Of a stretch of DNA of 64,000 bases, positions 10,769-50,700 are shown in pieces. Position 1 is the stretch's first letter; the number at the start of each line of letters is the position of its first letter. The notes beneath the pieces are model-generated. The model was given only the letters and a program-made list of their open reading frames with translations, was not told the DNA's origin and did no database searches. A program made the position numbers and the translations under genes. The stretch is from a virus: positions 124,001 to 188,000 of the IMG/VR virus record IMGVR_UViG_3300017917_001996; one strand, 5' to 3'.

Positions 10769-12937
10769 ATGGCTACCATACGTACAATTTACGAAGTTTC
10801 TAAACCTCAGCAGCAATTTTATTCTGTTGAAAGGGTTGGATACACAGATTTAAGCACAGCAACATATCAGATTGTTAATGATCTATTGCAATTAGGCGCA
10901 TTTACAATTGCAAACGTTAACTTTAAATCTTTACAGTCTGGGTCCTTAAGTGCAGGATCTTGGCCAATTGGCGAAAGACAATACAGTTTAACATCCGGGG
11001 GCTCCGGTTACAAAGTTGGTGATGCACTAAAAGTCCAAGGCGGTGTTGGCACTACCCCTTACACTATACGAGTAGATTCAGTTAAAACAGAATCAAGACT
11101 TGGAGTAACTTATGGGGGTGTTATTAGTACATTTACGGTTACTGATGCAGGAACTTATACAGTTGATCCCGGTCCAGCCGACGATCTTCCTATTATCTAT
11201 ACTAATCCTTTGTATTCAGTTGCAACGCTAATAATCAGAGGTAATGTAACTAGTAGTACCGGTAATGTTGTTGTTCCGCCGGCTAGGAATTCTGCTCAAG
11301 TTAACGACACCGATTGGATTACGAGCTACGGCACTACCGGCGGAGGCGGTATTGATGGGTCACGTTGGCCTGAAGATGGAGCTTGGTGCTTTAACACAGA
11401 TTTTGATGCCAATGTTGTAATAGGTTCATTGGTTAGTTTTGAGTCGGGTAGCAACGATGCTTTGATCCCTGAAGGTACATATGTAACAAAGATTGTACCA
11501 ATCTCTGGAATTGTTAACGGCATATCGAGAGCAAGCTCCCTTGCTCCATATTATGAAAAAACAACAGAGGGATTCTACTTACAGTTTAGTCAACCTATAA
11601 CTATTAGAAAAGGAGATAGATTAAACTTTAGAGGTTTTGGTGCAACCGTAGAGAACCTTAATAAGAAAATTCCTAATCAATGGCAAGTTACACTCGAAGC
11701 TGGTGGTGCAGTTGATCCTCTCAATGATAACATTGGAGTGTTCGGCAATGTTGTAGCAGGTATAACCGACGGAAACGTCATCCAAGTTACTAACCTGGTA
11801 ACTTCTAATAATTATAATCCTGTTATATATGCAGGCCAAACTGTTACACAACCGCCTAATGCTATTGGTACCCCATTACCAGCTGGTGTATTAGTGAAGT
11901 CAGTAGACAACTATACGGAAGTAGTCGCAGGACAAAAAGTCTTTAAAGCAAATGTAACATTGAACACTAATGTAACGGTTCCTACAGATAAACAATTACA
12001 GTTTGTTTTCTCTAACCCGCAACCGTGGAGAGTCTGCTTCCAAGTTCTAGAAAACGTTACTACTCCAGCGTCAGGTTCTCAGATGTTATGTGTGTATGCT
12101 GCTACAGAGTTACAATTGCCAAACAACGGTGTCATTTACAAAGTAACTGATAGTTCAGGTACTCATGTAGACTGGGCAGGTTTAATAGGTAATGTTTGGT
12201 CTAACCCTGCAACTAAGAGACCAGACAGGTTCAGCTCTGATCAAGGTTTTTACAATAGAGAAGCTCGTATTAAAGATTCCCCAAACAACTATCCTATCAA
12301 CTACTCATTGACTATTACAAATAGAGGAATATTCCTTGGTATGTGGGAAGGTAACTGGAGTACTTTACAACTGAGCACTGTAGACACAACTAAAGATAAC
12401 TTTTTCAATTGGTTCTTGATTCAACGACCAGTAAACAGATTAACAGGGAAAGTTGTTACAACAGGTCGTTGCCCAGTATTCTGTATCAACGGTGTAGGAT
12501 TTAAGTATTGGAAATTTATTGTTCGCGAAGAGGATGTTTTACACCCAACTACAGGCCCAGTGAATTCTCAGTATAGAAAAGCTGACCCACTAAGTGATGC
12601 TATTTCTGACCCAGTAAACACACCTTACAGAGTACCAGCTGACTATCATACTATTGATAGTTTTGCAATACTTAACACTACTAGTCAAATTAGTTTAACT
12701 GAAGATAGTAAGTATCTGCTATCATTCTTGAATAATTTAACTACACCTAGATTCAGGTATCCTGATGAATTAGATATGATTGGACAGACATCAGCAGACG
12801 TTGTTGGACAAGGAGTTGAATTGTCGATTACTCCATATGGTCAGACTTTGCCTAGTACCTATCGCGCATTGCCTGCAAACAACAAATATAACACAGGTAT
12901 GAGAATTTGTGTTATCAAAGATATTCCAACAACATAA
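10769..12937 (+). CDS. Large virion protein, first of a tandem paralogous pair
   Basis: 722 residues. The N-terminal part contains a Gly-rich beta unit (SLTSGGSGYKVGDALKVQGG, then GVISTFTVTDAGTYTV) that occurs in many phage fibres. The C-terminal ~320 residues are homologous to the whole of the next protein: PWRVCFQV, NNGVI, TNRGIFLGMWEG, WFLIQRPVNRLTG, CPVFCINGVG, KFIVREEDV and RFRYPDELDMIG. This core is a conserved structural protein of T4-like marine phages with no solved function that I can name. The two genes are 16 bases apart with AGGAGA between them, so they are co-expressed and may assemble together. It differs from its partner by the extra ~400-residue N-terminal half. Confidence 0.75.
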   Translation: MATIRTIYEVSKPQQQFYSVERVGYTDLSTATYQIVNDLLQLGAFTIANVNFKSLQSGSLSAGSWPIGERQYSLTSGGSGYKVGDALKVQGGVGTTPYTIRVDSVKTESRLGVTYGGVISTFTVTDAGTYTVDPGPADDLPIIYTNPLYSVATLIIRGNVTSSTGNVVVPPARNSAQVNDTDWITSYGTTGGGGIDGSRWPEDGAWCFNTDFDANVVIGSLVSFESGSNDALIPEGTYVTKIVPISGIVNGISRASSLAPYYEKTTEGFYLQFSQPITIRKGDRLNFRGFGATVENLNKKIPNQWQVTLEAGGAVDPLNDNIGVFGNVVAGITDGNVIQVTNLVTSNNYNPVIYAGQTVTQPPNAIGTPLPAGVLVKSVDNYTEVVAGQKVFKANVTLNTNVTVPTDKQLQFVFSNPQPWRVCFQVLENVTTPASGSQMLCVYAATELQLPNNGVIYKVTDSSGTHVDWAGLIGNVWSNPATKRPDRFSSDQGFYNREARIKDSPNNYPINYSLTITNRGIFLGMWEGNWSTLQLSTVDTTKDNFFNWFLIQRPVNRLTGKVVTTGRCPVFCINGVGFKYWKFIVREEDVLHPTTGPVNSQYRKADPLSDAISDPVNTPYRVPADYHTIDSFAILNTTSQISLTEDSKYLLSFLNNLTTPRFRYPDELDMIGQTSADVVGQGVELSITPYGQTLPSTYRALPANNKYNTGMRICVIKDIPTT

Positions 12938-12953
12938 TTAGGAGATTTATAAT

Positions 12954-14219
12954 ATGGCTTGTTTTTCAGTCACAAAAATAGGAATTTTAACAATTCCTGA
13001 ACTAGTTACTAACATTGTCAATGAAATGACCGGTAACGTCGCCGGTGGCGCAACTAATTCTATTCAATATTTTGATAAAGTATACGAAGGTAACAGCACA
13101 ACATATACTAGTAACAAAATTGTTATTTTAAAGTCTAATGTTGCAGTTGATCCATTGGCTAATGCATCGGTAGTAGGATCTTCGTTTGTGTCGAACACTT
13201 CACCTGGCTGGAGAATATGTTTTAACATTGATTCAACTCAAAAACGTATGCACGTTCATGTTGGAACAGATCTACAGTTGTCTAACAATGGTGCAATTGC
13301 AAGATTGAGCGATAGAGATACATCTTCTGCTCAGCCTATTGAACCAGTTGGAAACCTAACAGACACTTGGACAAATAATGGCCAGCCTGATCCAGATAAG
13401 TTTAATGAATTCTGGATAAACAGAAATGCAACTGGTACTGGTTATGAAGGTGCATATCCAATGAGCTACCTTCTTACTATGACTAATAGAGGCATTTTCT
13501 TAGGAGTATGGGAAGGAAGCCAAGAAGAAAATCCTCAAGGATTATCAGGGCCGTTTAAAAATGAAAACACTAACCCAGACTCTAACGCCGGTTATGGTAA
13601 TTCTCCGTTACGTTGGTTCTTAGTTCAAAGACCAGTTGACCGTTTGACAGGGCATGTTCGCGGTGGCGGCGCCCTTAGAGGCAGTAACGACCCAGCAGAC
13701 GAAAAGAGTAGATGTCCAGTTATTGCAATATCTGGATATGGTGCTCCGCAGAGATATAAAAAGTTTGTAGTCAGAGAAGTTGACATTCCGGTTCCGAGTC
13801 GTAAGAGACTTGCAGATGTGCAAACCGAAGACCAGCCTGCTATGTTAAATCCATATCAGCAACAGTCTTTAACTGAAACTGGTGAATTTATTGTTACGTT
13901 TATTAATTCAATTAATACATCACGTTTCCGTTATGCCGACGAGCTTGATATGCTAGGTACAGTAAGTGCTCGAGTAGTAGGTCCAGGTACGTCAATTACT
14001 GTTCGTGTATACGACGAGACTGACGATGGTACTCCTACTGGTATGCCAATGTATAGACAATACACAGCATTGTACTCGACTGAACGATATGGTGTTGGTA
14101 TGAGATTAATGGTTCTTACTAAGGTCGGTGTTGACATTAATGATCCTACCGATAATAGCCCTGCAGCAATACAACGAGCTATTGATGTCGAGAATCGCCA
14201 CGTGTTGCATTCAACTTGA
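12954..14219 (+). CDS. Virion protein, second of the tandem paralogous pair
   Basis: 421 residues. It shares the ordered blocks PGWRICFNI, NNGAI, TNRGIFLGVWEG, WFLVQRPVDRLTG, CPVIAISGYG, KFVVREVDI and RFRYADELDMLG with the C-terminal half of the preceding protein, plus SARVVG and MRLMVLTKVG at the end. The long N-terminal extension of the partner is missing, so this may be the minimal form of the family. The shared blocks show an old duplication, because synonymous and many amino-acid positions differ. Likely a repeated ring or collar component; that role is an inference. Confidence 0.75.
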   Translation: MACFSVTKIGILTIPELVTNIVNEMTGNVAGGATNSIQYFDKVYEGNSTTYTSNKIVILKSNVAVDPLANASVVGSSFVSNTSPGWRICFNIDSTQKRMHVHVGTDLQLSNNGAIARLSDRDTSSAQPIEPVGNLTDTWTNNGQPDPDKFNEFWINRNATGTGYEGAYPMSYLLTMTNRGIFLGVWEGSQEENPQGLSGPFKNENTNPDSNAGYGNSPLRWFLVQRPVDRLTGHVRGGGALRGSNDPADEKSRCPVIAISGYGAPQRYKKFVVREVDIPVPSRKRLADVQTEDQPAMLNPYQQQSLTETGEFIVTFINSINTSRFRYADELDMLGTVSARVVGPGTSITVRVYDETDDGTPTGMPMYRQYTALYSTERYGVGMRLMVLTKVGVDINDPTDNSPAAIQRAIDVENRHVLHST

Positions 14220-19991: not shown

Positions 19992-22900
19992 ATGATACTT
20001 GGTCAAAATCATCACGTTATTGTACCTGATACAAAAGACGAAGTTGCTATTGTAGAAAAAGTCTACTCTTTAACTTCAGCTGAGCTCGATAAAGATCTAA
20101 TTAGAATCGAGATGTACGGTGATGATTTTATGTTCGGAAGGAATCCAGATGATCTTCCTCCTGAGCCCGGTGTTGGTATATTAGATGATTTTACAGCAAG
20201 AGTGCCGACTCCGCCACATGAGCTAATTAAAGTTTTCTTGCCGCAATTTCAAATCGAATCAGTTAATCGTGCAATTGGAAATACAGCTAGTGCTGATTTA
20301 CTAAACGGAACCAATGGTATCAGTAGCATATGGCCAGACAACGTTAACGGAAATATTATAGTTATAAATTATGGTTTACACGATGCCAAAGCAAACATTG
20401 ACATTCAAACTTATAAAAATAATTTAATATCGTTACGTCAGGGTTTGGCAGAAGAACAAATTTTAGTTTGGCAAACACCATCACCTACACTTACAGTTAA
20501 TACTGCTCCTTATGCTGATGCAATGATTGAAGTAGCTGCACAGTTCAACGACATAGTTTCAGATACCAGGAAAATTTCAAATTGGACTGATGAATTGCCC
20601 GACGGTGAGTACCCACGTCAGTTAGGTTATTCTCGTTGGGTTGATTTAGTATTGTCTGAAAAAATAAACTTGGCAATTTTAAAACATTTAGGATCTGACA
20701 GACATAGGTATTATAGACTTGACTACCAGGAAAAATTTATTTTAGATAATCAAAATCAAATTGATTTATCATTTACCCCTTTGTCAACTAGTTGGGTTGA
20801 AATATATCACAGAAAAAATACAGCTTTTTATGCAGTGTCAAGAGGCAATGTTGACATTATAACCAATCCAATTAACAATGTAAGCGGACATTTAGCCGGT
20901 GGCCTGCACAGTATAGAAACTGGCGAGCAGTTAGTATCTGTAACCAACGGATATACTTTAATTAAAATTCGTAGAGAAACCGGGCAAGTAATCTATCATA
21001 AAACATTTAATTTTGAAGCGGATATACAAAATGCCAAAGCATTGGCTACAGCGTTAAACGAAACATCGAGCGATTACATTGTTGTAGTAACAACATACAA
21101 TGAACCAAAATCTAATAGACTTATATTTGAATTAGCAGATGCTATGTGTCGCTGCGGTGCAAGTACTGAGATATTTGGCAATCCAGAATTTAGACAAAGT
21201 GCAGCTTATATATTAATTGGTATTCCTGGCGTAGGTGCTGGCGGAGGTATGGAAGCATACGCAGGAATGATAGATAATGACAGGTATGCATATTGCGAAA
21301 TTGATTTTGAAATAGCATCCAACGGTGTACCATATGCTCGGGATATCTTTCCTCCAGTGGCCCAAATACGAAATTTAGATGATGAAGTTATACCTTTAAT
21401 TAATCCTGTCTACGATTTAATTGCTGGAGTACCGCCCATTAACGGAGAACGAATTCTTAACCCTAGGTATGCAACATTCTTTACTCCAGGTGTAACCAAT
21501 GAAACCTTTGTAATACAAGGAAACAAGATTATTTTTAGCTCTCAGTTAACTGGTATCGTTACAGTAATTTGTGATACGCAACCAGAAACGTCGGCTAACG
21601 GTGTGGTAATCAACATTGACAACATTCACAACGTTACAAATTATATACATAGATTTAACCCAGCAAGATGGGCGCCTGGGAAGCTAACAACAACTTATCC
21701 TCCAGCTGGCACGGATCCTTTATCGCCACCACAAGTTGTAAGTGCCGCAGGAGTTAATGCATTAGGACTATACAACACATCATTGGCTGCAAGAGTAGGC
21801 GATTCTTTTTATTGTGAACCAATAGTTATCAATCAGCCAAACTTTGGTTATGTACGAATTACCTCAGACCGTAAAAAGATGATTTACTACCCATTTCCTA
21901 ACTATATAGGAATGGACAGCTTTTCATACACGTTAATGACACAGCACGGCCAGGCTGGAATGACCAAAGCAGTTTATGTTAAAGTCACTTCGACTCCAGT
22001 GCCAACTTATATGTTAACTTCTAATGTAAATGAAATCGAAGAAGGTGGTAATGTTAAGATCACGTTGACAACAACTTTGATAAGCAACGGAACAAGAGTA
22101 CCGTACATGATATACGGAGTTAATAAGGATGACCTCGTTAGTCAAAATTTAACTGGAGAATTTGTTGTACAAAATAACCAGTCGATACTTGTAATAACTG
22201 CGGCTAGTGATTTTTTAACAGAAGGCCCTGAGTATTTAACGCTTGCTTTGACTGGTGTTTACCCAACTAAAAAGATTCAGATCAAAATAAAAGATACGTC
22301 TAGAACTCCTGTTTATCGACTAACTTCCAATTTGGCAGTAGCAAACGAGGGCGATGTAGTTAGATTTACAGCAAATGCTAATTATGTGTTAGATGGGACA
22401 ACAGTAGGTTTCTTAATCACTGGTATATCTCCTCAAGATATTGTACAACCACTGTCGGGCAACTTTACTTTTTTATCAAATGTGGCCTATAAAGATATTC
22501 AGATAGCCAGAGATGCCAAGACTGAAGGCTCAGAGACAATGACAATGTCTCTAATAGGTCCTCTTCCTACAGTAAGTAATAGTGTGTTTATAACAGACAC
22601 CTCGTTAGATCCATCTTACAAATTATATTCTAATATTAATATATCTGGGGAAGGCGATACAATTAAGTTTTATGTAGAGACTACTGAAGTTCAAAACGGT
22701 ACAACAATACCTTATGTAATCACCGGTATACAACCCGATGACATCCTTTCGCCTCTCAGCGGAAACTTTACAATTCAAAATCACTATGCTGAGCAACTAA
22801 TAACTTCGAGAAAAGACAGAACCACAGAAGGCCCAGAAGTATTGGTTATGTCTTTACAAGGAATACCTCAGTCTAACGCAAATGTTATAACCACTAGCGT

Positions 22901-24467
22901 TCTGATCAATGATACATCGATTGATCCGACTTATAAACTATTCTCTAATGTTAATGTAATCGACGAAGGAAATTCAATTAAGTTCTATATTCAAACTACT
23001 GATGCACTCAATGGAGACATTGTACCGTATGAAATAACTGGAATTTCCTCATCTGACATAGTCCAGTCGTTGTCTGGGGTGTTCTCAATAAACAATAATT
23101 ATGCCGAGACTGTAATTACTACACGAGAAGATAGGACCACCGAAGGCGCAGAAACTATTACATTTAAAATATCTGGAGTTTTAGAATCTTCTGCAAATAT
23201 AACATCAGCTAATGTAACAATAAATGATACGTCGCTAACACCAAATTATATTTTAAGCTCTAATGTTAGCTCTGTTAACGAAGGCAATAGCGTTAAGTTT
23301 ATACTTTCTACATCTAATGTTCCTAACGGAGAAAAAGTGTATTATTCAATTGATAATATGACAATCGCTGATATAAATCAACCTCTGTCTGGTTATTTTG
23401 AAATTAATAGCAACATTGGTGAAGTAGTAATTACTACCAAGAAAGATTTAAATACCGAAGGTGACGAACAACTTACGTTATCTCTTGACACTATATCAAC
23501 GGTTGGAAATGTTACTAGTCATACAGTTACAGTTATAGATACTTCTTTATCGCCGCTTATGTCTTTTACTTCAAACAGGACAGTGATGATGGAGTCTAGT
23601 ACAGTTAAATTTACGGTGACTGTAGTATCTCAAAACGTTCCAGACGGTACTCAAATTCTTTACTCATTGGAGGGATTAGACGGTTTTAATGTAAGCGAAG
23701 ATTTGGTAGGATCATATGAAGGACCTAATTATTTAACGATCAATAATAATCAGGCAGAGCTGTTGTTTACAACTGTGTCTGATAGACGTACTGAGAACAC
23801 CGAGATTTTACGTGTTTCGATATTACCAATATTTAATGCAGTCTGGGTCGACCAACGATCATCTATAGATGTATCAGTGATTGATTCATCCAAGGGCTTA
23901 ACGTACAGCATTTCTTTTAGTGCTTCAACGATATTTGAGGGTGCTAGCACTGTAGCTACAATTGTGTGTACTGGATTATTCCCGGGCGAAACAATTAACT
24001 ATTCTATATCAGGTACAAATGTAGGAGCAACATTGGTAACATCAGCAATTGGAACGTTAACGCCTGTTAACGGTATCGCAACATTAAATATCCAAACAAA
24101 AATTGATGGTGTAAAATCTGGTGCAAGACCTGTTATGCTTTATATCTCAGGCCCTGGCGGCAGTTCTGCTTCTGCATCGTTTACCTTAGATGATTACTAT
24201 ACCTGTAACAACACTATCAGTCAATTTGGAACTTACACGATCGATTTTGGAACCAGAACAGGAGTCATTGGTATCAATTACGATTCATATGGCGCACCGG
24301 ATTCATATTCGTTAACTTGGAATGGAATTACAAGATCTGGAATTCTAAGATCCGGAACAGGATCTTTGCGTATTACTAAAACTACAGCATATCCTACTAC
24401 TGCAACTTTTACAATGACTTCTGGGTCTGCAGGTAGTCAAGCAGAAGCAACAATTTATTGCGGCTAA
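19992..24467 (+). CDS. SGNH-like pseudohydrolase + GG/ILEI domain + Calx-beta array; possible tail-fibre hinge protein
   Basis: 1491 residues. Residues ~35-225 follow the SGNH-hydrolase block order, but the catalytic residues are replaced: block I GDS is GDD (residues 43-45), block III GxND is GLHD (128-131) and block V DxxH is DGEY (204-207). Residues ~315-425 form a GG/ILEI domain (LIKIRRETGQVIYHKTFN and YIVVVTTYN, then CGASTEIFG and ILIGIPGVGAGGGMEAYAG), known from T4 gp35 and animal FAM3/POMGnT1 proteins. A cadherin-like segment (YYPFPNYIGMDSFSYTL) precedes six ~100-residue Calx-beta-like domains (~671-1230). A more divergent copy and a short C-terminal beta domain with cysteines follow. 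The GG domain suggests a gp35-like hinge or receptor-contacting fibre. Inactive SGNH chemistry is inferred from the missing Ser and His. Confidence 0.85.
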   Translation: MILGQNHHVIVPDTKDEVAIVEKVYSLTSAELDKDLIRIEMYGDDFMFGRNPDDLPPEPGVGILDDFTARVPTPPHELIKVFLPQFQIESVNRAIGNTASADLLNGTNGISSIWPDNVNGNIIVINYGLHDAKANIDIQTYKNNLISLRQGLAEEQILVWQTPSPTLTVNTAPYADAMIEVAAQFNDIVSDTRKISNWTDELPDGEYPRQLGYSRWVDLVLSEKINLAILKHLGSDRHRYYRLDYQEKFILDNQNQIDLSFTPLSTSWVEIYHRKNTAFYAVSRGNVDIITNPINNVSGHLAGGLHSIETGEQLVSVTNGYTLIKIRRETGQVIYHKTFNFEADIQNAKALATALNETSSDYIVVVTTYNEPKSNRLIFELADAMCRCGASTEIFGNPEFRQSAAYILIGIPGVGAGGGMEAYAGMIDNDRYAYCEIDFEIASNGVPYARDIFPPVAQIRNLDDEVIPLINPVYDLIAGVPPINGERILNPRYATFFTPGVTNETFVIQGNKIIFSSQLTGIVTVICDTQPETSANGVVINIDNIHNVTNYIHRFNPARWAPGKLTTTYPPAGTDPLSPPQVVSAAGVNALGLYNTSLAARVGDSFYCEPIVINQPNFGYVRITSDRKKMIYYPFPNYIGMDSFSYTLMTQHGQAGMTKAVYVKVTSTPVPTYMLTSNVNEIEEGGNVKITLTTTLISNGTRVPYMIYGVNKDDLVSQNLTGEFVVQNNQSILVITAASDFLTEGPEYLTLALTGVYPTKKIQIKIKDTSRTPVYRLTSNLAVANEGDVVRFTANANYVLDGTTVGFLITGISPQDIVQPLSGNFTFLSNVAYKDIQIARDAKTEGSETMTMSLIGPLPTVSNSVFITDTSLDPSYKLYSNINISGEGDTIKFYVETTEVQNGTTIPYVITGIQPDDILSPLSGNFTIQNHYAEQLITSRKDRTTEGPEVLVMSLQGIPQSNANVITTSVLINDTSIDPTYKLFSNVNVIDEGNSIKFYIQTTDALNGDIVPYEITGISSSDIVQSLSGVFSINNNYAETVITTREDRTTEGAETITFKISGVLESSANITSANVTINDTSLTPNYILSSNVSSVNEGNSVKFILSTSNVPNGEKVYYSIDNMTIADINQPLSGYFEINSNIGEVVITTKKDLNTEGDEQLTLSLDTISTVGNVTSHTVTVIDTSLSPLMSFTSNRTVMMESSTVKFTVTVVSQNVPDGTQILYSLEGLDGFNVSEDLVGSYEGPNYLTINNNQAELLFTTVSDRRTENTEILRVSILPIFNAVWVDQRSSIDVSVIDSSKGLTYSISFSASTIFEGASTVATIVCTGLFPGETINYSISGTNVGATLVTSAIGTLTPVNGIATLNIQTKIDGVKSGARPVMLYISGPGGSSASASFTLDDYYTCNNTISQFGTYTIDFGTRTGVIGINYDSYGAPDSYSLTWNGITRSGILRSGTGSLRITKTTAYPTTATFTMTSGSAGSQAEATIYCG
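22002..23890 (+). repeat. Six tandem Calx-beta-like domain repeats
   Basis: Each ~310-bp unit encodes Y-x-L-x-SN, then an EG-x-x-V/I-K-F strand, G-x-x-V-P-Y-x-I-x-G, LSG-x-F, D-x-x-TEG-x-E and I-x-DTS at the end. Starts are marked by SNVNEIEEG, SNLAVANEG, SNINISGEG, SNVNVIDEG, SNVSSVNEG and SNRTVMMES. The last copy loses the EG, and a further degenerate copy follows. Confidence 0.85.
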
Positions 24468-24537: not shown

Positions 24538-24894
24538 ATGGCCGCGCCAAATTTAACCACAACTACGTCTATTATAGGCAAAACTAAAGCAGATTGGATT
24601 CCAGCTACGCTAACAGCCATTCTTACTAATACGGCCAACAGTTCACAAGCATACAGAATAAACGTACTATATGTAACAAACTTGAGCGCATCAGATTCAA
24701 CAGTAACTGTAGATCTTTATAGGAATTCAATTAGTATTAAATTAGCCAATAATATTCCAGCACCTACACAAACATCATTGGTAGTTATCGGTAAAGATAC
24801 CAGCATTTATCTCGAAGAGGGCGATTCTTTACGTATTTCCGCAGGCTCAGCTAGTACGTTACAGTATGTTATTTCCTACGAAATTATGAGTTAA
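24538..24894 (+). CDS. Small beta-sandwich virion protein (cap family, copy A)
   Basis: 118 residues, MAAPNLTTTTSIIGKTKAD at the start. A family repeated in this window (also 32,948, 34,683, 44,700 and the first 95 residues of the protein at 8,123) shares a T-rich start with SIIGxT, then RINxLYVTNLS, a strand of charged ligands, VxxxTxxxVIGKDTSIYLEEGDSLR and a closing ISYEIMS. The pattern suggests a small all-beta protein, probably trimeric. It lies 7 bases before the long collagen-like fibre gene, so it may cap, bind or be co-assembled with it. No activity is predicted. Confidence 0.75.
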   Translation: MAAPNLTTTTSIIGKTKADWIPATLTAILTNTANSSQAYRINVLYVTNLSASDSTVTVDLYRNSISIKLANNIPAPTQTSLVVIGKDTSIYLEEGDSLRISAGSASTLQYVISYEIMS

Positions 24895-24901
24895 TTAGAA
24901 A

Positions 24902-27900
24902 ATGACGATACGTTACCTACGTCAGCCGCCGGTATTAAACAACCTAAGTAAATCGTCGAATGTAAGTTCGACAGTACTAGGAACGCCCCTACGAATTACC
25001 AATGCTGCTGCTAGTACGTCGTTTACAACTGGTGCATTGATTGTCACCGGTGGCGTAGGTATTTCGGGTAACTTAAACGTTGCTAACGTAAGAGCCAATA
25101 CTGTTAGCGGAACTATTACCACTGCAAATCAACCCAATATTACTAATATTGGTGTGCAGCAAAATTTTACAGCAGTTAATGTAACTATTACTGGTAACCT
25201 AGTTTTAGCTGGTAACCTTTCTACTGTTAGTTCTGAAAATTTATCTGTTTCGGATTCTCTATTAGAAATCCACACCAGTGGAACAGCATTAACTGTTGAC
25301 GACGGCAGAGACTTAGGTCTTGCTATTCATTACTATAAAACTGGTGACCAAACTGCGTTTTTAGTCTGGGACAATGCCACTGGCAGTTTGAAGTATTACG
25401 CCGATGGTTCAGCTAGCGTTAGTGGTGTTGTATCCGGTACACTGGGTACAATTAACGCTGGCGAATTTATTGCGTCGAATATTACACCTTCGACTAGTAC
25501 ATTAACTGGTGCTTTACAAGTAGCTGGTGGTGCTGGTATTCAAGGTAATGTTTTTGCTGGTGCAGTATATACAAACAATTTATATTACGCCAATGGTAGT
25601 CCGTACAGTTCTTCCATGGGTGCAACTGGTGCCCAGGGTCCGATTGGTGCAACTGGTGCCCAAGGTGCTACAGGCGCTGGCTACACAGGAAGTCGAGGTG
25701 ACACTGGTTTAACTGGTGCAACTGGACCAATTGGTGCAACTGGTTTTGGTGTTCCAGGACAAGCAGGTTACACGGGTAGCCAAGGTATACCAGGTATAGC
25801 TGGTGTACAAGGTGCAACTGGCGCAAGCGGTATAGCAGGACCTGTAGGCGGCCTTGGCGCTACAGGTGCAACTGGACCAGCTGGCGCACCAGGAACTATT
25901 GGCCAGACAGGTTATACTGGTAGTGCAGGCTCAGCAGGCTCAGCAGGCGCACAAGGTGCAACTGGTGCAAGCGGCATAGCAGGACCAGCTGGTAGTACTG
26001 GACCTACTGGTTACACAGGTAGTCGGGGCATTGCCGGAACAGCAGGTACAGCCGGCGCAACTGGTGCCACGGGACCAGCCGGTTTACCTGGCGCAGCAGG
26101 TATTGATGGTGCAACAGGTGCAACAGGCTCTGTGGGACCTGCAGGTCCTGCGGGCGAAACTGGTGCTACGGGCTTACCTGGATTACCTGGCGCAGCAGGC
26201 CTAGACGGAGCAACCGGTGCCACAGGTATTGCTGGACCTGCAGGTCCTATAGGAGAAACGGGTGCAACTGGTCCAATTGGATTACCTGGTACAGCAGGTA
26301 TTGATGGTGCTACTGGCGCTACGGGTATAGCAGGTCCCGTTGGACCAGCAGGCGAAACGGGTGCAACAGGACCGGCTGGTTTATCTGGCGCAGCAGGCCT
26401 AGACGGAGCAACCGGTGCCACAGGTATTGCAGGTCCAGCCGGTCCTGTTGGTGAAACAGGTGCAACTGGTCCAATTGGATTACCTGGTACAGCAGGTATT
26501 GATGGTGCTACTGGTGCTACGGGTATTGCCGGTCCAGTGGGTCCGTTAGGTTCAACAGGTGCTACGGGTTTAACTGGTGCTACTGGTACACCTGGCAATG
26601 TTGGTTACACAGGTAGCCAAGGTTTAGCGGGTACAGCAGGACGTGATGGGGAAGCCGGTGCAACTGGTCCAATTGGATTACCTGGCGCAGCGGGCCGCGA
26701 TGGTTCTACAGGTGCAACTGGTATAGCTGGTCCAGTAGGTCCTGCAGGTCTAACAGGAGCAACAGGCCCTGCAGGTTTACAAGGTACAGCAGGTATTGAT
26801 GGTGCTACTGGTGCTACGGGTATTGCCGGTCCCGTTGGACCAGCAGGCGAAACGGGCGCAACTGGTCCAATTGGATTACCAGGCGCAGCAGGTATTGATG
26901 GTGCCACCGGTGCTACAGGTATTGCCGGTCCAGTGGGTCAAGATGGCGCAACAGGAGCAACAGGACCCGCAGGACAAATAGGTTTGTCAGGGCAAGATGG
27001 TGCTACTGGTGCTACGGGCATTGCTGGACCAGTTGGCCCTGCAGGTGAAACAGGTGCAACAGGACCTGCAGGATTACAAGGTGTAGCAGGAACAGACGGT
27101 GCTACCGGTGCCACAGGTATTGCAGGTCCAGTAGGTCCTGCAGGTGAAACAGGTGCAACTGGTCCAATTGGATTACCTGGTACAGCAGGCCGCGATGGAG
27201 CAACAGGTGCCACAGGTATTGCTGGACCAGTAGGTCAAGACGGTGCTACTGGTGCTACTGGTCCTGCTGGACAAATTGGCTTACCAGGTCAAGACGGTGC
27301 TACTGGTGCTACAGGTATTGCAGGTCCAGTTGGTCCTATAGGAGAAACAGGTGCAACTGGTCCAATTGGTTTACCTGGCGCAGCGGGCCGCGATGGTTCT
27401 ACAGGTGCAACTGGTATAGCTGGTCCGGTTGGCCAAGACGGTGCTACTGGTGCAACTGGTCCAATTGGTTTAACAGGTTCTCCTGGTATAGATGGAGCAA
27501 CAGGTGCCACAGGTATTGCAGGTCCAGTAGGTCCAATTGGTTTAACTGGTTCTACAGGACCTCAGGGCCCAGCGGGCGTTAATGGAAGAGATGGCGCCAC
27601 GGGTGCTACAGGTATTGCAGGTCCAGTGGGGCAAGACGGTGCTACAGGTGCAACTGGTCCTGCTGGACAGATTGGTTTAACAGGTAGAGATGGTTCCACT
27701 GGTGCAACTGGTGTTGCTGGACCAGTTGGTCCTATAGGAGAAACAGGTGCCACTGGCCCGATTGGTCAAACAGGTCTTCCGGGCAGGGATGGTTCCACTG
27801 GTGCAACTGGCCCAGTGGGCCCAGTAGGACAAAATGGAGCCACTGGTGCAACCGGTCCAATTGGTCAAACGGGTCTTCCGGGTCGTGATGGCTCAACGGG

Positions 27901-29449
27901 TGCAACTGGCCCAGTGGGCCCAGTGGGTCAGAGCGGTGCTACAGGTGCCACTGGCCCTATAGGTTTACCTGGTATAGCAGGTATTGATGGTGCTACTGGT
28001 GCTACGGGTATAGCAGGTCCAGTAGGTCCTATTGGTCCAGCTGGTGCAACAGGCTTGATAGGAGCTACAGGTCTACAAGGTGATCTAGGTTACACTGGTA
28101 GTCAAGGTATTCCAGGATCACCAGGTGGCGCAACTGGCCCAATTGGTTTTACAGGTAGTTCGGGCAGTACTGGCCCAATTGGTTTTACAGGTAGTCGAGG
28201 ACTATCTGGATTTGTTGGATCGTCGGGCGATTTTGGAGCAACTGGTTTAACTGGTTATACAGGTAGTCAAGGTTTACCAGGCGCAGCAGCAGATAAAGGT
28301 TTCACTGGTAGTCAAGGTGAAGTAGGTTTTACTGGTAGTTCGGGTATAAACGGGTATACAGGTAGTCAGGGTATACCTGGTGCTTATGCAGCAATTGGTT
28401 ATACTGGTAGCCAAGGAGACCTAGGTTATACTGGAAGTCAGGGTATCCCTGGCGAGTTTGCAGCATTAGGTTATACTGGATCTAAGGGTGACACAGCTAC
28501 TAACTTTACTGGCCCTCAAGATATCGGAGTCATTGGTGGCAATAGTTATACACTAGCGACATTTGATGCTGGTAATTTACTAAAATTAGACAGTACACAA
28601 GAGTTTACCTTAACAATTCCAACAAACGACCAAGAGCCATTTTTAATTGGACAGCGTGTTGATATTCAACAAGCAAACATTGGTTCTATAAACATAGTTA
28701 CAAGTACTGGCGTTACACTGCAATCAGTTGGAATTTCAGGATTAGTTACACGATATTCTGTTGGTACACTGTTTAAGGTTGATTTTAACGAATGGTTGTT
28801 TGTTGGACCAGAATCAACAGGTTACACAGGTAGCCGGGGAGATTTAGGTTACACAGGTAGCCGGGGCGAAAAAGGTGATACAGGGTTAACAGGGTATACA
28901 GGTAGTCAAGGTATACCTGGTGCTTATGCAGCAATTGGTTATACGGGCAGTATAGGTTATACTGGATCCGTTGGTGAACAAGGGCTCAGAGGATATGTAG
29001 GAAGCTCTGCAACTATAGCAGTAGGATTACTTGATTCTAATAACCAACTTGGTAATGTTGTAACACAAATAAACACTATCCAATTTGATCAAGAATCTGG
29101 TTTTAGCGTAACTGATTTAGGTTCAGGTGCAGTAAGAATTTCGGGCGGAGCAGGTGGCACAACTGGCAATGTTTCGTCATTCAGATTCTGGGAAGTCGAT
29201 GGGCAAAATACGCTGGTTGCCAGCGGTTCTGACACTGTTAAATTTGTTGCCGGTAGCGGTATTACTATAGAAACAGATGATTCAACAAACCCAAAAACTA
29301 TAATCTTTTCTGCTCCTAGATTTACTGTTAATTTGGATGCAAATGGTGTTAATAGACCTTACGGGTTAGATGCTTATTATGATGGCGGATATCCGGACAG
29401 CGTTTACGGAGGCATTGTTCCGCTTGATGCAGGCGGTATTGACTTTTGA
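24902..29449 (+). CDS. Long collagen-like tail fibre
   Basis: 1515 residues. Residues 1-238 are beta-rich fibre-base modules: [19 protein letters not shown], a [27 protein letters not shown] unit, [16 protein letters not shown] and the hinge YANGSPY. Residues ~239-1200 are almost pure Gly-X-Y triplets, forming an extended triple helix on trimerisation. A 33-residue unit ([20 protein letters not shown] plus 13 more) is repeated through the middle. A globular beta domain (~1205-1300, [16 protein letters not shown] and [10 protein letters not shown]) interrupts it, then a short YTGS collagen stretch. The C-terminal ~140 residues are beta-rich and end in DAGGIDF. No charged collagen stabilisers beyond occasional Asp/Arg/Glu are present. 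Function: distal reach of a receptor-binding fibre. Confidence 0.9.
25617..28500 (+). repeat. Collagen-like Gly-X-Y tract with 99-bp higher-order repeats
   Basis: About 960 codons of G-X-Y triplets. From about 26,100 to 28,050 a 99-bp unit (33 residues, eleven triplets) recurs with [12 protein letters not shown] and [13 protein letters not shown] cores. Variants replace GPAGETG with GQDGATG. Copies share long identical DNA stretches, so copy-number change by recombination is expected. The ends use YTGSQG-type triplets instead. Confidence 0.93.
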
Positions 29450-29479: not shown

Positions 29480-29923
29480 ATGGCAGTTCAGATACAATTA
29501 CGGAGAGGCACATCAGCTGAGTGGTCTTCAGTTAACCCTGTTATCGCACAGGGTGAATTTGTCATTGAACTCGACACAGGGCGTTTTAAGTTAGGTAACG
29601 GCGTAGATCGCTGGAATAACTTAAATTATAACGGATTTATAGGACACGGCAGCGACCCAAGTAACTGGAATACTAATGTAAAACTTGGCTTGTACGATGT
29701 AAATAGGCTTAGCTGGAGCGGAACTTTAGGTTCCCCTACTGATGCCGTCCCTAAAGGTTTACTAGCAGTTTATGTTAGTGGAACTAGCATCGTTCAGAGA
29801 TATCAACCTACTAATGATGCATTAGTTACAGTTGAGTATGTTCGTACAAAATTTGGAATTGAAGATTGGAGCCCATGGTCTCAAGCAACCGATGGTGCTA
29901 AAGTTGATGGTGGCACTTTCTGA
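29480..29923 (+). CDS. Mtd_N-like tail-fibre protein
   Basis: 147 residues. The start (VQIQLRRGTSAEWSSVNPVI, then GEFVIELDTGRFKLGNGVD, RWNNL) is the N-terminal beta-prism domain named for Bordetella phage major tropism determinant, used by many phage fibres to trimerise and attach. The remainder (NTNVKLGLYDVNRLSW and LLAVYVSGTSIVQRYQ) is beta-rich, and the chain ends in TDGAKVDGGTF, resembling the ends of its two neighbours. No C-type lectin fold or reverse-transcriptase cassette follows, so this is not a diversity-generating system. Probably a short fibre or a tip adaptor. Confidence 0.82.
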   Translation: MAVQIQLRRGTSAEWSSVNPVIAQGEFVIELDTGRFKLGNGVDRWNNLNYNGFIGHGSDPSNWNTNVKLGLYDVNRLSWSGTLGSPTDAVPKGLLAVYVSGTSIVQRYQPTNDALVTVEYVRTKFGIEDWSPWSQATDGAKVDGGTF

Positions 29924-36639: not shown

Positions 36640-37221
36640 ATGGCTATTTTAAAAGTTGAACCAAGTGCAATTAACACAGAAGCAGAATTCTCTTTTGCTA
36701 ACATTTCTGTTACTGGAAACATTTCTGTTGGTACATCAGTAATCTCAGCCACTGAAATCGGCGACATAGTCTTTAGTACTCCTACTGGTCCAGTTGAATT
36801 TAATTCAAATACAGTTAATTTTTTAAGTAATATTGCCATTGAAGGTCCGCAAGGGGCCATTGGATATACAGGCAGTGCTGGTGCAAATGGCAGCATAGGC
36901 TATACCGGAAGCCAAGGTGTTATTGGATATACTGGTAGCGCAGGTACGACCGGAGGAGCAACAATATATTCAGCTTCGGTACCCAGTGGTTCATGGACCG
37001 GATCTGGACCTTATACACAAATAGTAAGTATTGTTGGGTTAACATCTGCAACTAACGTAATTCTTGATCTAGATTTATCTGCGGTATCTTTTGGTAATGT
37101 TTCTTCAGTTCAAACAAGTTATGCTCTTGTTTACCGTGCGGTCACAGGAACTGATCAAATAACACTATATGCAACTAGTGTTCCTGCAAATTCTTTTAAT
37201 ATTTTTGTGGCGGTAATTTAA
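36640..37221 (+). CDS. Short YTGS adhesin, paralogue of the 40,986 gene
   Basis: 193 residues. Residues 1-72 (MAILKVEPSAINTEAEFSFA, NISVGTSVISATE, NSNTVNFLSNIAIEG) are nearly identical to the start of the protein at 40,986, also at DNA level. A short collagen-like stretch ([21 protein letters not shown]) links to a C-terminal ~85-residue beta domain (SGPYTQIVSIVGLTSATNVI, then YRAVTGTDQITLYATSVP) found at the ends of other phage fibres. The stop overlaps the next ATG by one base (TAATG), which indicates translational coupling. Confidence 0.82.
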   Translation: MAILKVEPSAINTEAEFSFANISVTGNISVGTSVISATEIGDIVFSTPTGPVEFNSNTVNFLSNIAIEGPQGAIGYTGSAGANGSIGYTGSQGVIGYTGSAGTTGGATIYSASVPSGSWTGSGPYTQIVSIVGLTSATNVILDLDLSAVSFGNVSSVQTSYALVYRAVTGTDQITLYATSVPANSFNIFVAVI

Positions 37222-40200
37222 TGGATGCTTTAATTATTCGTAGGGGTGGAGGTACTACTAGCACAGCAACTGTGAGTATTTCTAATGTTGTTATTGCAGA
37301 TTTGCAAACCGTGTCGCCGACTGCGGTTAATATCGATTCTGTTGCTAATGTGACTGTAAATGGTTCAGGATTCAGTAACATCAGCTCAATTTCAATTGGC
37401 GGTGAAACAGTAACTAATTATACCGTACTAAGCACTTCTCAGATAAGAATCAACCAATTACCTTCTCTTGCCAGCGGGTTATATGATCTTGTATTAAAAT
37501 ATTCAAGTGGACAACAAGCTGTTATTTTTTCTATACAGTACCAAAACGAAAAACCGGTCTGGAGCACTCAACCGTCATCAATATATATTATTCCCGGGGA
37601 ATCTGTAAGTTCTAGCATTCTCTCAGATTACAGCAATTCTTTTGGAGAAACCTACGAGTTATCGGCAAATACTTCGTTACCTACAGGATTGTCTTTATCG
37701 TCAAACGGAGCATTAACAGGAACAGTTAGCGTGTCCAATGTTGGTACTTATCCTATAACAGTGTTATCAAAAGATGCTTTTAATCAAACAACTGCTCAAA
37801 CATTCAACATAGTTGTACGAGATAATAGGTATGACGCATCAAATTTAGCAATATCTACAGACTATGGAAATTTCAGATCTTATCAACAGATCAGTAAGGT
37901 CAGTAGTGTTGATTACCTAACAACAGTTTTTCAAGGTAGCGGCTATTCTGACAGCAACCCTAAAATACACGATGTTAGGTTTTCTACAGACGGGTATTAC
38001 ATGTACTCCGTATCTTCAATTATACACTCATTGGTTCAATATTATTGTACAACACCATGGGCAGTTTCAACAGCCCGTGTAATTTCATATGTTGACCTAA
38101 GCAGTCTGCTTCAGCCTGGATCCTTTTCTTGGACCGGTGGTATCTATTTCAAACCGGACGGTTCTAAATTATACATCGCCGGTCGTACCAGTGGTAATTC
38201 AGGAATATTGTACGAATGTAATTTATCAAGAAGTTGGATGATCTCTTCGATTATGTATTCCGGGTCTCAATCTATAAGCGCCTATAACAGCACGCCTGGA
38301 TCTGTGTATTTTAAACCTGATGGAACAAGAGCATGGATTTTTGACGCTTTTACTAGCAGCGTCAAGGAATGGAATTTATCTCAAGCCTGGAACATATCTA
38401 CATTGACTTATTCCAAGTCGTTGCAGTTTAGTCCCTCTGATAATGCATATCCTCCGAACGTTAGTTTATCGATAAACGATATTGGAACAATTTTTTATTA
38501 CTCATCTGGTACCGGTTTGAATATTGTTAATTTCAGAGGATGCACAATGTCGCCAGCATGGACATTGCCTGCCTCTCTGAGCGTAACTACTAATATCAAT
38601 TACACACTTCCATCTAATGGCGTAGCCGATCAGACTCCGTCTGGTGTAGTAGTAATTAACGACACTCCATTGGTCGCAATAACTGAAAGATTTTTTTATG
38701 ATCTAACAGCATCTCCGTATTCTTTTTACAGTCCTAGAAATATGGTAAATTTTAAAGATAACGATAATATAAACGGAAATGCATATACCCTGTCAGGATC
38801 TATTTTAGTTAGTTTAGGATCATTGGCACCTGCTCAATTACCGGTAATCGGAACAGCGTCTTCTTTTTGTTTTGACGCATATGGCAAAAATGCTTATATA
38901 GTATCAGTATCTGGATCTGAAAAAATTATCACGAGATTAACAGGATCCACTTCCCAGTGGTCGGTATCCGAGTATGCTAAAGTGTCTCAGTCGATGGGGG
39001 ATGTGGCTAAAATTGCAATTAGCAGGGACGGAGGAAAATTATTTTTACTTGAAGCTGCTGCTAAAAAGATTCATTTGTTTAATTTAACCAACAAATATAG
39101 TATTTCAAAGATTCAATATAGTCAAGCATACACATTAAATCTTAAAGGCACCATAAAGTCATTTCAATTTTCCAAAGACGGCAAAGAGGTTAATTTTTTA
39201 GTTAATTCTATCATATATAGATATCCTTTGACAGTGGCTTGGGATCTATCTACTATGACGTCGGCTACTAGTTTTAGAACTGTTGATTCAGCGGCAACCA
39301 GTTTTACCATTGATTATCAAACAAAAAGTTTGGTCACTGTTTCGTCATCAAAAATAGAAACTTATTCTAATTTTACCAGCATTGATCTAGCAGGCTGGAC
39401 TATTGATACTTCTGTAATAGATGGTTCTAGTTCTAGTTTAAATTTTAGTACCGACGGAACAAAAATGTATATATACGGAACTTCTGACAATTCATTGGTA
39501 CAATTTGAGTTACAAACAGCATGGGATCCAACCACAGCTCAATCTTTTTATAAATTAACAGCAAACGAATTGTTTGAGCAAGCAGTAGGAGCACTGATAG
39601 CCTTTGCATTTAAGAGCGATGGGTCCAAATTATTTGCAGTATTTAATACGGGTGATGTTGTTAAACAGTACACACTTACCAGACCTTGGGAAATTGCATC
39701 GTTAACGTATGATAATATATCATTTAGTATTACTTCACAGGAAACTACACCAACAGGAATTTATGTTAGTCCGGACGGCACACGAATGTATGTAATTGGA
39801 TCAACTGGTGATAAAGTAAATGAGTACGCACTATCAGTTGGTTGGGATCTCAGTACTGCTAGTTTCACTAGATCGATAAGCATTGCAACACAAGAATCCG
39901 CATCAAGTGATGTGTATTTTAAATCCGACGGCACACGAATGTATGTAATTGGTACTGGCAGTGACAACGTAAATGAGTATAGTTTGTCAACGGCTTGGAA
40001 TGTCAGTACTGCTAGCTATGTAAGAGCATTTAGTGTCGCTACACAAGAAACAAACTCCTCGGGATTTGCTTTTAATTCCGACGGTACTCGAATGTATCTA
40101 CTCGGAACAACAGCTGACACAGTATTTGTTTACAATCTAGGTACAGGTTGGGATATGTCAACAGCGTCTTATTCTGGTAGTTCTTATAAAATAATCCAGC

Positions 40201-40928
40201 CTGACACAACCTATAATGGAATGCGTTTTAAACCAGACGGAACCTCAGTATTTTTAATTGGAACACTTAGAGATACCATAACCGAATATCGATTAAGTAC
40301 ACCATGGATGATTTCCACGGCCAAATACTATAAAACTGCTGGAACTACAGTTGCCGCACAAGATACTACATCTACAGGATTGTTTTTTAAACCAGATGGA
40401 TTACAGGTATTTGTTGTTGGGTCGACCAACGATTCGGTATACTCATACACATTGTCTTCTGCCTGGGAAATACAAACCCTAACATTTTCGGCAAACGTCA
40501 GTGTTGCAGCAAAAGAAACCACGCCAAGAGATGTATATTTTAAAACAGACGGCACAAAGATGTACATATTAGGTTCGGCTAGCGACAATGTTCACGAATA
40601 CACACTATCAACACCCTGGGATATAACTACAGCAGTGTTTAGCCAATCTTTATCCATATCTGCAAAAGAAATTAATTCCAGCGGAATAAAGTTTAATAAC
40701 GATGGTACAAAAATGTACATAATTGGAACTACCAGTGACAGTGTTATTGAATACAATCTTTCGTCTGCATGGAACATCAGCACTGCAACATTTGCAAGAC
40801 AATCTGCTGCAATAACATTGTACCAAGGAGCACCAGAATCAATCGACATTGATGATAGCGGAAAATATTGCTACGTAATCGGGTCAAGTAATACTAATAC
40901 CACGCTGATACAAATGAAGTTTGAATGA
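37221..40928 (+). CDS. IPT/TIG + Ig-like + long beta-propeller repeat adhesin
   Basis: 1235 residues. Residues ~30-105 form an IPT/TIG-type domain (VTVNGSGFSNISSISIGGET). Residues ~110-200 are a putative Ig domain (LPTGLSLSSNGALTGTVS, AFNQTTAQTFNIVV). From ~240 to the end, ~46-residue repeats of the type FxxDGTxMYVxGxxxDxVxEYxLSxxWxxSTA recur, with at least nine consecutive strong copies after ~790 and degenerate copies before. That is too many for one ring, so two or more propellers in series are likely. The first Met is coupled to the preceding gene. The repeats are the sort that bind cell-surface carbohydrate; no active site is seen. Confidence 0.85.
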   Translation: MDALIIRRGGGTTSTATVSISNVVIADLQTVSPTAVNIDSVANVTVNGSGFSNISSISIGGETVTNYTVLSTSQIRINQLPSLASGLYDLVLKYSSGQQAVIFSIQYQNEKPVWSTQPSSIYIIPGESVSSSILSDYSNSFGETYELSANTSLPTGLSLSSNGALTGTVSVSNVGTYPITVLSKDAFNQTTAQTFNIVVRDNRYDASNLAISTDYGNFRSYQQISKVSSVDYLTTVFQGSGYSDSNPKIHDVRFSTDGYYMYSVSSIIHSLVQYYCTTPWAVSTARVISYVDLSSLLQPGSFSWTGGIYFKPDGSKLYIAGRTSGNSGILYECNLSRSWMISSIMYSGSQSISAYNSTPGSVYFKPDGTRAWIFDAFTSSVKEWNLSQAWNISTLTYSKSLQFSPSDNAYPPNVSLSINDIGTIFYYSSGTGLNIVNFRGCTMSPAWTLPASLSVTTNINYTLPSNGVADQTPSGVVVINDTPLVAITERFFYDLTASPYSFYSPRNMVNFKDNDNINGNAYTLSGSILVSLGSLAPAQLPVIGTASSFCFDAYGKNAYIVSVSGSEKIITRLTGSTSQWSVSEYAKVSQSMGDVAKIAISRDGGKLFLLEAAAKKIHLFNLTNKYSISKIQYSQAYTLNLKGTIKSFQFSKDGKEVNFLVNSIIYRYPLTVAWDLSTMTSATSFRTVDSAATSFTIDYQTKSLVTVSSSKIETYSNFTSIDLAGWTIDTSVIDGSSSSLNFSTDGTKMYIYGTSDNSLVQFELQTAWDPTTAQSFYKLTANELFEQAVGALIAFAFKSDGSKLFAVFNTGDVVKQYTLTRPWEIASLTYDNISFSITSQETTPTGIYVSPDGTRMYVIGSTGDKVNEYALSVGWDLSTASFTRSISIATQESASSDVYFKSDGTRMYVIGTGSDNVNEYSLSTAWNVSTASYVRAFSVATQETNSSGFAFNSDGTRMYLLGTTADTVFVYNLGTGWDMSTASYSGSSYKIIQPDTTYNGMRFKPDGTSVFLIGTLRDTITEYRLSTPWMISTAKYYKTAGTTVAAQDTTSTGLFFKPDGLQVFVVGSTNDSVYSYTLSSAWEIQTLTFSANVSVAAKETTPRDVYFKTDGTKMYILGSASDNVHEYTLSTPWDITTAVFSQSLSISAKEINSSGIKFNNDGTKMYIIGTTSDSVIEYNLSSAWNISTATFARQSAAITLYQGAPESIDIDDSGKYCYVIGSSNTNTTLIQMKFE
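39600..40920 (+). repeat. ~138-bp tandem propeller repeats
   Basis: Successive units carry the coding core DGTRMYVIG or DGTKMYIxG followed by EY-LST-W-STA. The run from about 39,600 to 40,920 contains roughly nine units with a fixed ~46-residue period. Confidence 0.75.
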
Positions 40929-47751: not shown

Positions 47752-50700
47752 ATGGCACAGTATATTACAGCAAACAACATTGAACCCGCAACTCTTACTA
47801 CATTGTCTGGACCCAAGATACAAAGTATTACCTATCCTGGCAACGATACGGCAGTGAATGTAGCCGGTGGTGACACAGTTACTTTAACTGGTACAGGATT
47901 TGTCAGCGGCTGTACTATACTGGTCAACGGTTCGGCAGCACCGTCAGTTACTTTTAATAGCTCAACCAGTGTGCAGTTTACTACTCCAGCATTGAGTGCA
48001 GGTGGATATGTTGTATACTTAATTAATCCCGACGGTGGAACAGCTATTGCAGTGCCGGGCTTACAGTACAGTGGTGTGCCCGCGTGGTCAACCGCAGCAG
48101 GTACGCTAGGCACAGTTTATGAAACTAGTTCTATTAATACCACAGTCGCAGCCACAGGTGATGCACCAATCACCTACACATTGCAAAGTGGTAGTTTACC
48201 AACAGGTGCCAATTTAAATAGTTCAACAGGTTTGATCAGTGGTACTAGTCCAATTACTGCCAACTCTACTACTTACAGTTTTACTATACGTGCCACAGAT
48301 GGACAAAATCAAGATACAGATCGTGCATTTAGTATTACTATTAATCCTGATGTGGTCACATGGTCATCACCGGCTGACGGCACCGCCTATTCTGTAGGCG
48401 TTGATTCGGCTATTAGTAATGTTTCACTGGTGGCTAGTAGTGCTGCTGGCAACGGAGTTCAATATACTGCAAACACATTACCTACTGGTTTGACTTTGAC
48501 GGGTAATGTCATAAGTGGAACACCTACAGTTACAGGAAATGTCAGCACACTGTTAACTGCAACAGCCAATGTTTCTAACAGGTCTGCAACTAGAACTATC
48601 AGCTGGGTGGTTAATGTCAGTGGCGATACAAATTGGAACTATGTAACCACTCTCTTAAGTGCTAATATGGCAGTTGCTCCCTTTAATGATGACGCAAGTA
48701 CAAATAATTTTGCAGTGACAATTAATGGTGACACACGACCAAACAATTTTAATCCGTATACTCCAGGATACTATAGTAATTATTTTGATGGTAATGGAGA
48801 TTATTTAACTGTTGCAACTTCTGCTAGTATGGTGGCATCTGGGGATTTTACTTTTGCGGCTTGGGTATATCCAACAGCAGCTTCCCCAATCAGAGGATGG
48901 TTATTCAACAATGCAGGAAGTGGATCAACTGCTAGCCATGAAATATTTGGGGTATCTCTCAGCGACACCCTTGCAATAGGAGTTTGGTATAATGATTTTT
49001 CAAATATTAAATTAGGTACTAACAGTAACACAGTACCGATCAACCGATGGTCATATATATCTGTGGTAAGGTCTGGTTCATCTGTTACAATTTATATAAA
49101 TGGAGTCTTGTCATCAACCTCAACTGGAACTAGAACAGGAAACATTGGTTCTAGCACAGTAAATGGAACGATTGGCGCGTATCAGGTTTCACAATATTTT
49201 ATAGGGTATATTGCTGATCTGAGTTGGACTAATGATAGTGTTATAACTACAGTTCCTACTAGCCCTAAATCATCAACTGGTACAAGTTTATTAACCTGTC
49301 AATCAAACAGATTTATAGATAATTCAACAAACAATTTTACAGTTACTAGAAATGGTGACACTAGAATAAGTTCATTTGATCCATTTGTACCAAACAGTAG
49401 TTACAGTACCTATGGTAGTACATACTTTGATGGTACTGGGGATTATTTAATAGTTAACGGTAATTCAAATTTAGCATTAGGCTCAGGCGATTTTACAGTA
49501 GAGGGTTGGTTCTATATTGGAACCAACACATCAATTTGGCGTGCTCTTGTTATTATTGGTAATTCCAACGATAACGGAATATATTTAAGCACTAGTAATA
49601 CGCTTACTTGGTTTGAAAGTGGCGCTCAGGCATCGTCGGCTACAGTGATACCTAGCAGTTGGAATCATTTTGCAGTATCTAGACAAGGTACAACGTTAAG
49701 ATTATTTCTAAACGGAGTTAAATCATCAAGTGATTATACAACTTCTACTAATTATACAAGAACCTCAGTGTATATTGGTTCCAACGGTACTGGAGGAGAG
49801 CCTTACACGGGATATTTGTCAGATATTAGAGTAGTCAAAGGAACCGCAGTCTATACCTCAGCATTCACACCACCTACTGCACCACTAACAGCAATAGCAA
49901 ACACAAGTCTATTAACCTGTCAAACAAACCAACCATTTAACAATAACATATTCTTAGACAACAGTACTAATAATTTCTTAATTACAAGAGCAGGTAACAC
50001 CACACAAGGTACATTTAGTCCTTATGGTGCAGGTTGGAGCGGCAACTTTAACGGTTTAAATTCAATGATAGATATAGGATTTACTGGCGTAGCACCAACC
50101 GCAGATTTTACCATCGAAATGTGGTTCTATGGTAATTCTTTTACAGCACAAACTGGTGGTGATACAGGATTGACTTTCATTGGATTGGCTACCGACACCA
50201 GTGGCAGACTTAACTTGTTTGTAACTGCCGCCGGCGAAATTAAAGCGTCGATGACAAACAACAGTGGAACAGTTGTAATTAACTTATCATCGAATACCGG
50301 TGTAGTTAACAAAACTACATGGTATCATGCGGCATTTGTCAGAAACGGAAATAATTATAACATTTATTTAAATGGAACATCGGTGGCTTCAACTACAAGT
50401 GCGACAGCAATGACTTATGCACAAGATATGTTGTATGTAGGTATTAACAGACCCGGCGGATCTGGAACAAGTTCTCACCCCTGGGATGGATACATTAGTA
50501 ATTATAGGTATACCAAGTCTGCGGTTTACACCGGTAATTTTACGCCAAGTGCAGTACCATTACAACCAATTACAAATACAGTTTTAATGCTATTGCAGGA
50601 TTCTAGGTTTGTTGACAACTCAGTAACACGGTACCCTGTTACTCCTACTAATGTTACAGTTCAACGCTTTAGTCCATTTGCAGGAACAATATTACCCGCT

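Follow-up and report, generated by a model that had tools for sequence, protein, structure and literature searches.

Gene and protein architecture

The stretch of DNA analysed here (the window) is 64,000 nucleotides long and corresponds to bases 124001-188000 of the 250,289-base viral record IMGVR_UViG_3300017917_001996. The gene under study lies at positions 19992..24467 of the window, on the plus strand, as do all parts of it described below. It is a single open reading frame that runs in a clean frame from ATG to stop and encodes a protein of 1,491 amino acids (aa). From the N-terminus, the protein consists of a pseudo-SGNH domain, a GG/ILEI domain, a conserved beta region, six repeats of ~104 aa and a C-terminal domain. 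The gene probably encodes an adsorption protein associated with the tail of a large T4-like phage, a protein whose N-terminal module derives from an SGNH carbohydrate esterase joined to a GG/ILEI carbohydrate-binding domain and is now non-catalytic. In phage tails, an SGNH domain is generally taken to be an active deacetylase that helps to set the host range.

An SGNH fold lacking most of its catalytic residues

The SGNH-fold domain spans residues 35-235 (20094..20696) and is predicted to be catalytically dead on the combined evidence of the Pfam family PF13472 (Lipase_GDSL_2), an orthologue alignment, an AlphaFold2 model and Foldseek searches. By itself the domain matches PF13472 below threshold (E 0.0012); the two orthologues that were scanned pass the cut-off (43-44 bits versus 32.9), and pass that of the ILEI family as well. 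Structure prediction used residues 31-470 of the window protein aligned with 30 relatives (31 sequences in all), and the resulting model replaced a single-sequence model that was set aside for its predicted local distance difference test (pLDDT) score of 32. The alignment-based model has a mean pLDDT of 78, with values mostly of 88-98 over the SGNH domain, and recovers the alpha/beta/alpha order of the SGNH fold; its linkers are of low confidence, and the relative arrangement of the domains lies outside the prediction. Among structures in the Protein Data Bank (PDB), the top Foldseek matches run from FAM3B through GDSL lipases and FAM3C to an acetyl-xylooligosaccharide esterase; the phage tail fibres 9d84 and 9d81, TMEM2 and the POMGnT1 stem domain come after them. 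Among viral models, an uncultured phage protein annotated as an SGNH esterase comes first (48% identity), phage G gp431 and Dickeya ILEI proteins come next, and gp35 of phage RB16 appears lower down. The SGNH profile also matches 9d80 (E 2.2e-6).

The domain has the alpha/beta/alpha fold and the block order I-II-III-V by which the SGNH fold family is recognised. Of the residues that mark an active enzyme, it keeps the block II glycine (Gly96, 20277..20279) and the catalytic acid of block V (Asp204, 20601..20603), the latter being present in 30 of the 31 family members placed on a tree. The remaining three are replaced. Block I reads GDD for GDS (residues 43-45, codons GGT GAT GAT), with Asp45 (20124..20126) in place of the nucleophilic serine; block III reads GLHD (residues 128-131) for GxND, with His130 (20379..20381) in place of the oxyanion asparagine; and block V reads DGEY (residues 204-207) for DGxH, with Tyr207 (20610..20612) in place of the catalytic histidine. 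A preliminary description, made from the sequence before any search, had proposed an SGNH fold in which these three residues are replaced and the acid is kept, and the orthologue alignment, the model and the Foldseek matches bear this out. The possibility that the catalytic residues lie elsewhere in the alignment is ruled out, as Asp45, His130 and Tyr207 fall exactly at the family Ser, Asn and His. In the SGNH lipase SrL, exchange of Ser, Asn or His for alanine, each singly, abolished activity (PMC10779480); because all three are replaced here, ordinary SGNH catalysis has very likely been lost, and our analysis makes a strong case for assigning the domain as a pseudoenzyme.

Versions of the domain with intact catalytic residues were found in five distinct contigs by scanning IMG/VR (loci L016/L021/L036, L017/L018/L038, L020/L035, L022/L034 and L023/L037). 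Scanning viral contigs with the protein by itself gave no relatives, and neither did two scans of genome contigs; a weak tblastn match to Microbacterium phage Fizzles looks like chance and was discarded. Over the SGNH domain the five orthologues share 44-51% identity with the window protein, and all five read GDS, G[LM]ND and DGxH where the window alone reads GDD, GLHD and DGEY, in an alignment that is ungapped at these sites. They occupy the same gene position: where flanks are present, two sheath genes, a gene for a long protein and the 1,491-aa-type gene follow one another, and genes for a 118-aa and a collagen-like protein come next in three of the contigs. Since the catalytic residues are kept in all five syntenic orthologues, the inactivation is specific to the window lineage, and descent from an active-type esterase is shown by these intact copies. 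The catalytic blocks are not significantly enriched for window changes (11/32 sites versus 13/57 in the rest of the SGNH domain; Fisher's exact test, p 0.32), and therefore no targeted change of these blocks is claimed. Several residues that flank the pocket have changed as well, among them I46F, C48F and H127Y.

A sequencing or assembly artefact, or misaligned catalytic blocks, could in principle mimic this pattern, as the changes occur in one viral record with no near relative in the collections scanned. Such an error is extremely improbable given three separate in-frame replacements, an alignment without gaps at blocks that lie over 70 residues from one another, and the independent loss of the same positions in other phages. 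It is also conceivable that the replacing residues built a new metal or nucleophile site from Asp45, His130, Asp131, Asp204 and Tyr207, which are polar and catalytically capable and, judged by family positions, would be placed around one pocket. We regard such changed chemistry as very unlikely: this set of residues occurs in no relative, and other dead members have Gly or Asn at the Ser position and Tyr, Phe or Ile at the His position.

The adjoining GG/ILEI domain

A linker (residues 236-305, 20697..20906; 53-62% identity with the orthologues over the aligned part) connects the SGNH domain to a GG/ILEI domain at residues 306-430 (20907..21281). The latter scores 27.8 bits against PF15711, just above the cut-off of 27, matches a FAM3B profile (E 5.5e-4) and is identified by Foldseek as similar to FAM3B, FAM3C and POMGnT1, so that the FAM3- and gp35-type domain foreseen beside the SGNH fold is indeed there. 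It has the same fold and belongs to the same sequence family as FAM3B/C, the POMGnT1 stem, TMEM2, T4-type gp35 and the CBM_1 domain of a streptococcal phage Tal protein (PMC9437275). The preliminary description had gone further and likened it to a gp35 hinge. Similarity to gp35 holds at the level of the fold (RB16 gp35 ranks 28th among the structural matches, over about one domain), and no long-tail-fibre gene order is seen; a hinge of that type was considered but is not adopted here.

FAM3C, Fam3L2 and the POMGnT1 stem bind N-acetylglucosamine (GlcNAc); in POMGnT1, Arg129, Asp179 and Arg207 take a direct part in the binding, and FAM3 members conserve these residues (PMC9802357). The first two of them, Arg and Asp, are also kept in the streptococcal phage Tal domain (PMC9437275). 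We mapped the triad onto the window protein via FAM3B, with an R-D-R spacing of 50 and 28 that is identical to that of POMGnT1. In place of the Arg/Asp/Arg of the GG/ILEI family, the window domain has Asn319 (20946..20948) at the equivalent of Arg129, Asn370 (21099..21101) at that of Asp179 and Ser403 (21198..21200) at that of Arg207. Of 50 ILEI domain sequences from phages, 35 have the R/D/R triad, a count that includes near-identical copies.

These replacements bear on the proposal, made in the preliminary description, that the esterase had been turned into a sugar-binding module. On such a reading the dead SGNH pocket would act as a lectin that still holds the acylated glycan of the host in a reversible manner but no longer cleaves it. 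Fold, pocket glycine and acid are all retained, the gene lies in a tail-adsorption cluster, and dead relatives are still constrained (see below); the replacements would remove the chemistry yet leave a pocket rich in Asp, His and Tyr that could favour binding. The changed pocket-flanking residues, however, speak against preserved glycan recognition, as does the absence of the ILEI sugar triad that most phage GG domains keep. Neither of the two known sites of the SGNH-ILEI module lends support to the sugar-binder proposal, although binding through other surfaces is possible, and we consider a lectin-like role rather doubtful.

Across the phage ILEI domains (L073-L126), R/D/R is mostly kept and the whole triad is lost in some groups (A/G/E, A/G/G). 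The conservation of these residues amounts to a testable prediction of which phage ILEI domains bind sugar.

Repeated loss of catalytic residues in the wider family

An alignment-based scan recovered 34 loci. Relatives that are not orthologues of the window gene lie either inside giant virion proteins of ~4,000 aa (phrog_10938) of other large phages or in small proteins of ~235-283 aa. SGNH and ILEI occur in one frame at 18 ILEI loci (~17 distinct phage contigs). The combination, of which the preliminary description was not aware of any account, is not unique to the window protein, being present in these contigs and in a database protein annotated as an SGNH esterase. In giant proteins such as L028, L029 and L042, ~170-200 residues usually separate SGNH block I (GDS) from block II, which is an unusual split of a catalytic domain.

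Catalytic residues are intact in the small family members and in those resembling Vibrio K354. Elsewhere they are lost in diverse ways: L057/L059/L061 read GDG/GLYD/DP[IM]FP, L040 reads GDG/GMID/NGVYP, and L050 reads GDG/GLMD with no recognisable DxxH; L056 and L080 have GDG/DPVYP, L064 has GDN/DPMIP, L052/L053/L114 have GDG only, and in several members Asn alone is changed, to Met, Thr, Glu or Arg. On a tree of 31 sequences, built with the catalytic columns excluded, the window falls in a clade with its intact orthologues (support 100/99). State changes on this tree number at least six for Ser, four for His, seven for Asn and one for Asp; the counts are approximate, with some deep nodes open. 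In total, 11 of the 31 members are devoid of the catalytic Ser, and annotation as an active enzyme from the fold alone would mislead for a sizeable share of the family. SGNH death and loss of the ILEI triad show no clear coupling among family members: L078 and L080 have a dead SGNH domain but an R/D/R triad, and L092, L093 and L096 keep Ser and His but have lost the triad.

Selection was assessed from the ratio of non-synonymous to synonymous substitution rates (dN/dS). The dead SGNH cores of L057/L059/L061 have values of 0.08, 0.14 and 0.13, comparable with 0.11 for the SGNH domain of the intact pair L035/L036, the ILEI domains of which give 0.10; dead domains in the family are therefore kept by selection. 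Whether these proteins form a phage-specific SGNH-ILEI family, in which virion esterase modules were repeatedly switched off and kept as a recurrent, functional but non-catalytic tail building block, with the window as an extreme case that has also lost its companion sugar triad, is a question on which we are evenly divided.

Two further loci of the same phage contain relatives. A second small SGNH-like open reading frame of ~140 aa (L019, outside the window at G000:C1:7998-8318, plus strand) has GDS, GTND and DAIHP intact. A 3,740-aa frame (L070, G000:C1:101869-105204, minus strand) is related to the giant SGNH- and ILEI-containing virion protein of other phages; no SGNH or ILEI match was found within it. 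The SGNH and ILEI domains seem to move between the giant virion protein and the 1,491-aa-type protein.

Fate of the module in the window lineage

The ancestral module would have joined an SGNH carbohydrate esterase to a carbohydrate-binding domain of the GG/ILEI type, and would have been able to deacylate and to bind glycans. In the window lineage, nucleophile, oxyanion Asn and general base have disappeared from the esterase and the canonical sugar triad from the ILEI domain, with the fold and the gene position retained through the loss of both sites. The SGNH domain would no longer hydrolyse esters and could have become a non-catalytic folded module of the tail fibre or baseplate, acting as a structural or protein-protein spacer or as an altered ligand-binding surface, while the processing of host glycans may have been lost or shifted to other fibre proteins. 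The intact copies in close relatives, and the repeated origin and continued maintenance of dead domains in sister phages, suggest that an enzyme which once cut has been reused by phages as a component of the adsorption machinery that does not cut. With intact and dead orthologues at one gene position, nature has set up an experiment that asks if an enzyme of adsorption can turn into a purely structural or binding part.

Several observations weigh against a retained, non-catalytic role. Within its clade on the 31-row tree, the window sequence has the longest branch (0.93), and it is changed at 27% of the orthologue-invariant SGNH sites, compared with 0-14% in the others; this leaves room for decay, although the ILEI domain shows a similar excess (22%). 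The collections scanned hold no close relative of the window, and the dN/dS values come from sister copies rather than from the window domain. The location of the protein in the virion, finally, is deduced from gene order and homologues.

A switch of receptor might have made the SGNH-ILEI module dispensable, leaving it to drift toward loss. Besides the long branch, the joint loss of both functional sites fits such relaxed decay, as does the absence from the window copy of extra modules that the orthologues carry between the ILEI domain and the beta-rich C-terminal region (a LamG domain in the two scanned, L016/L017). The frame, however, is intact over 1,491 codons; the remaining substitutions at SGNH sites that are invariant in the five orthologues are mostly conservative, and 73% of these sites are kept, close to the 78% in ILEI; and purifying selection on the dead sister copies is strong. 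Decay towards loss is in our view unlikely, and a retained non-catalytic module is the reading we prefer.

Comparison with known systems

Other phage tail proteins with an SGNH fold are coliphage G7C gp63.1, Klebsiella prophage fibres (PMC13123978) and the Shigella phage Moo19 fibre (PDB 9d80/9d81). While gp63.1 and two of the Klebsiella fibres have been shown to be active esterases, the window protein is devoid of the Ser, the Asn and the His and continues into a GG/ILEI domain. The order SGNH-linker-ILEI of the window and the five orthologous contigs recurs in UniProt A0A6J5T0B2. The phrog_10938 giant virion proteins likewise unite SGNH and ILEI domains from these families within a single chain and show repeated catalytic loss, but they are different, much larger proteins in which the two domains lie more than 1,000 residues apart. 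A precedent for a pseudo-SGNH domain, and for that only, is the C-terminal domain of arthropod Oskar, in which the catalytic Ser and His are disrupted and which is thought to be non-catalytic (PMC2848206); Oskar is a eukaryotic germ-granule protein, and its context is unrelated to that of the phage protein.

C-terminal region and neighbouring genes

The beta-rich region downstream of ILEI (21291..22016) shares 40-53% identity with the orthologues and is Big_9-like in one of them. The six repeats (22017..23897) are spaced 101-115 aa apart and contain a D..TEG.E motif. They had been described as Calx-beta domains, which they resemble by eye only; PF03160 (Calx-beta) has no match in the 1,491-aa protein at E 10 or E 1, and this identity is not accepted.

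The position of the gene is that of tail and adsorption genes. T4-type head genes lie at the start of the window (portal, phrog_213; major head protein, phrog_138), followed by two syntenic tail sheath genes (10769..14219, plus strand; phrog_12249 match), a gene for a 1,906-aa protein, the gene under study, the syntenic genes for the 118-aa and collagen-like fibre proteins (24538..29449, plus strand) and more fibre genes. Further along the window, a 147-aa protein (29480-29923) has an Mtd_N (major tropism determinant N-terminal) domain, a 1,235-aa protein (37221-40928) combines an SMP-30/lactonase-like beta-propeller with He_PIG domains, and a 1,574-aa protein (47752-52476) contains six Laminin_G_3 (ConA-like lectin) stretches.

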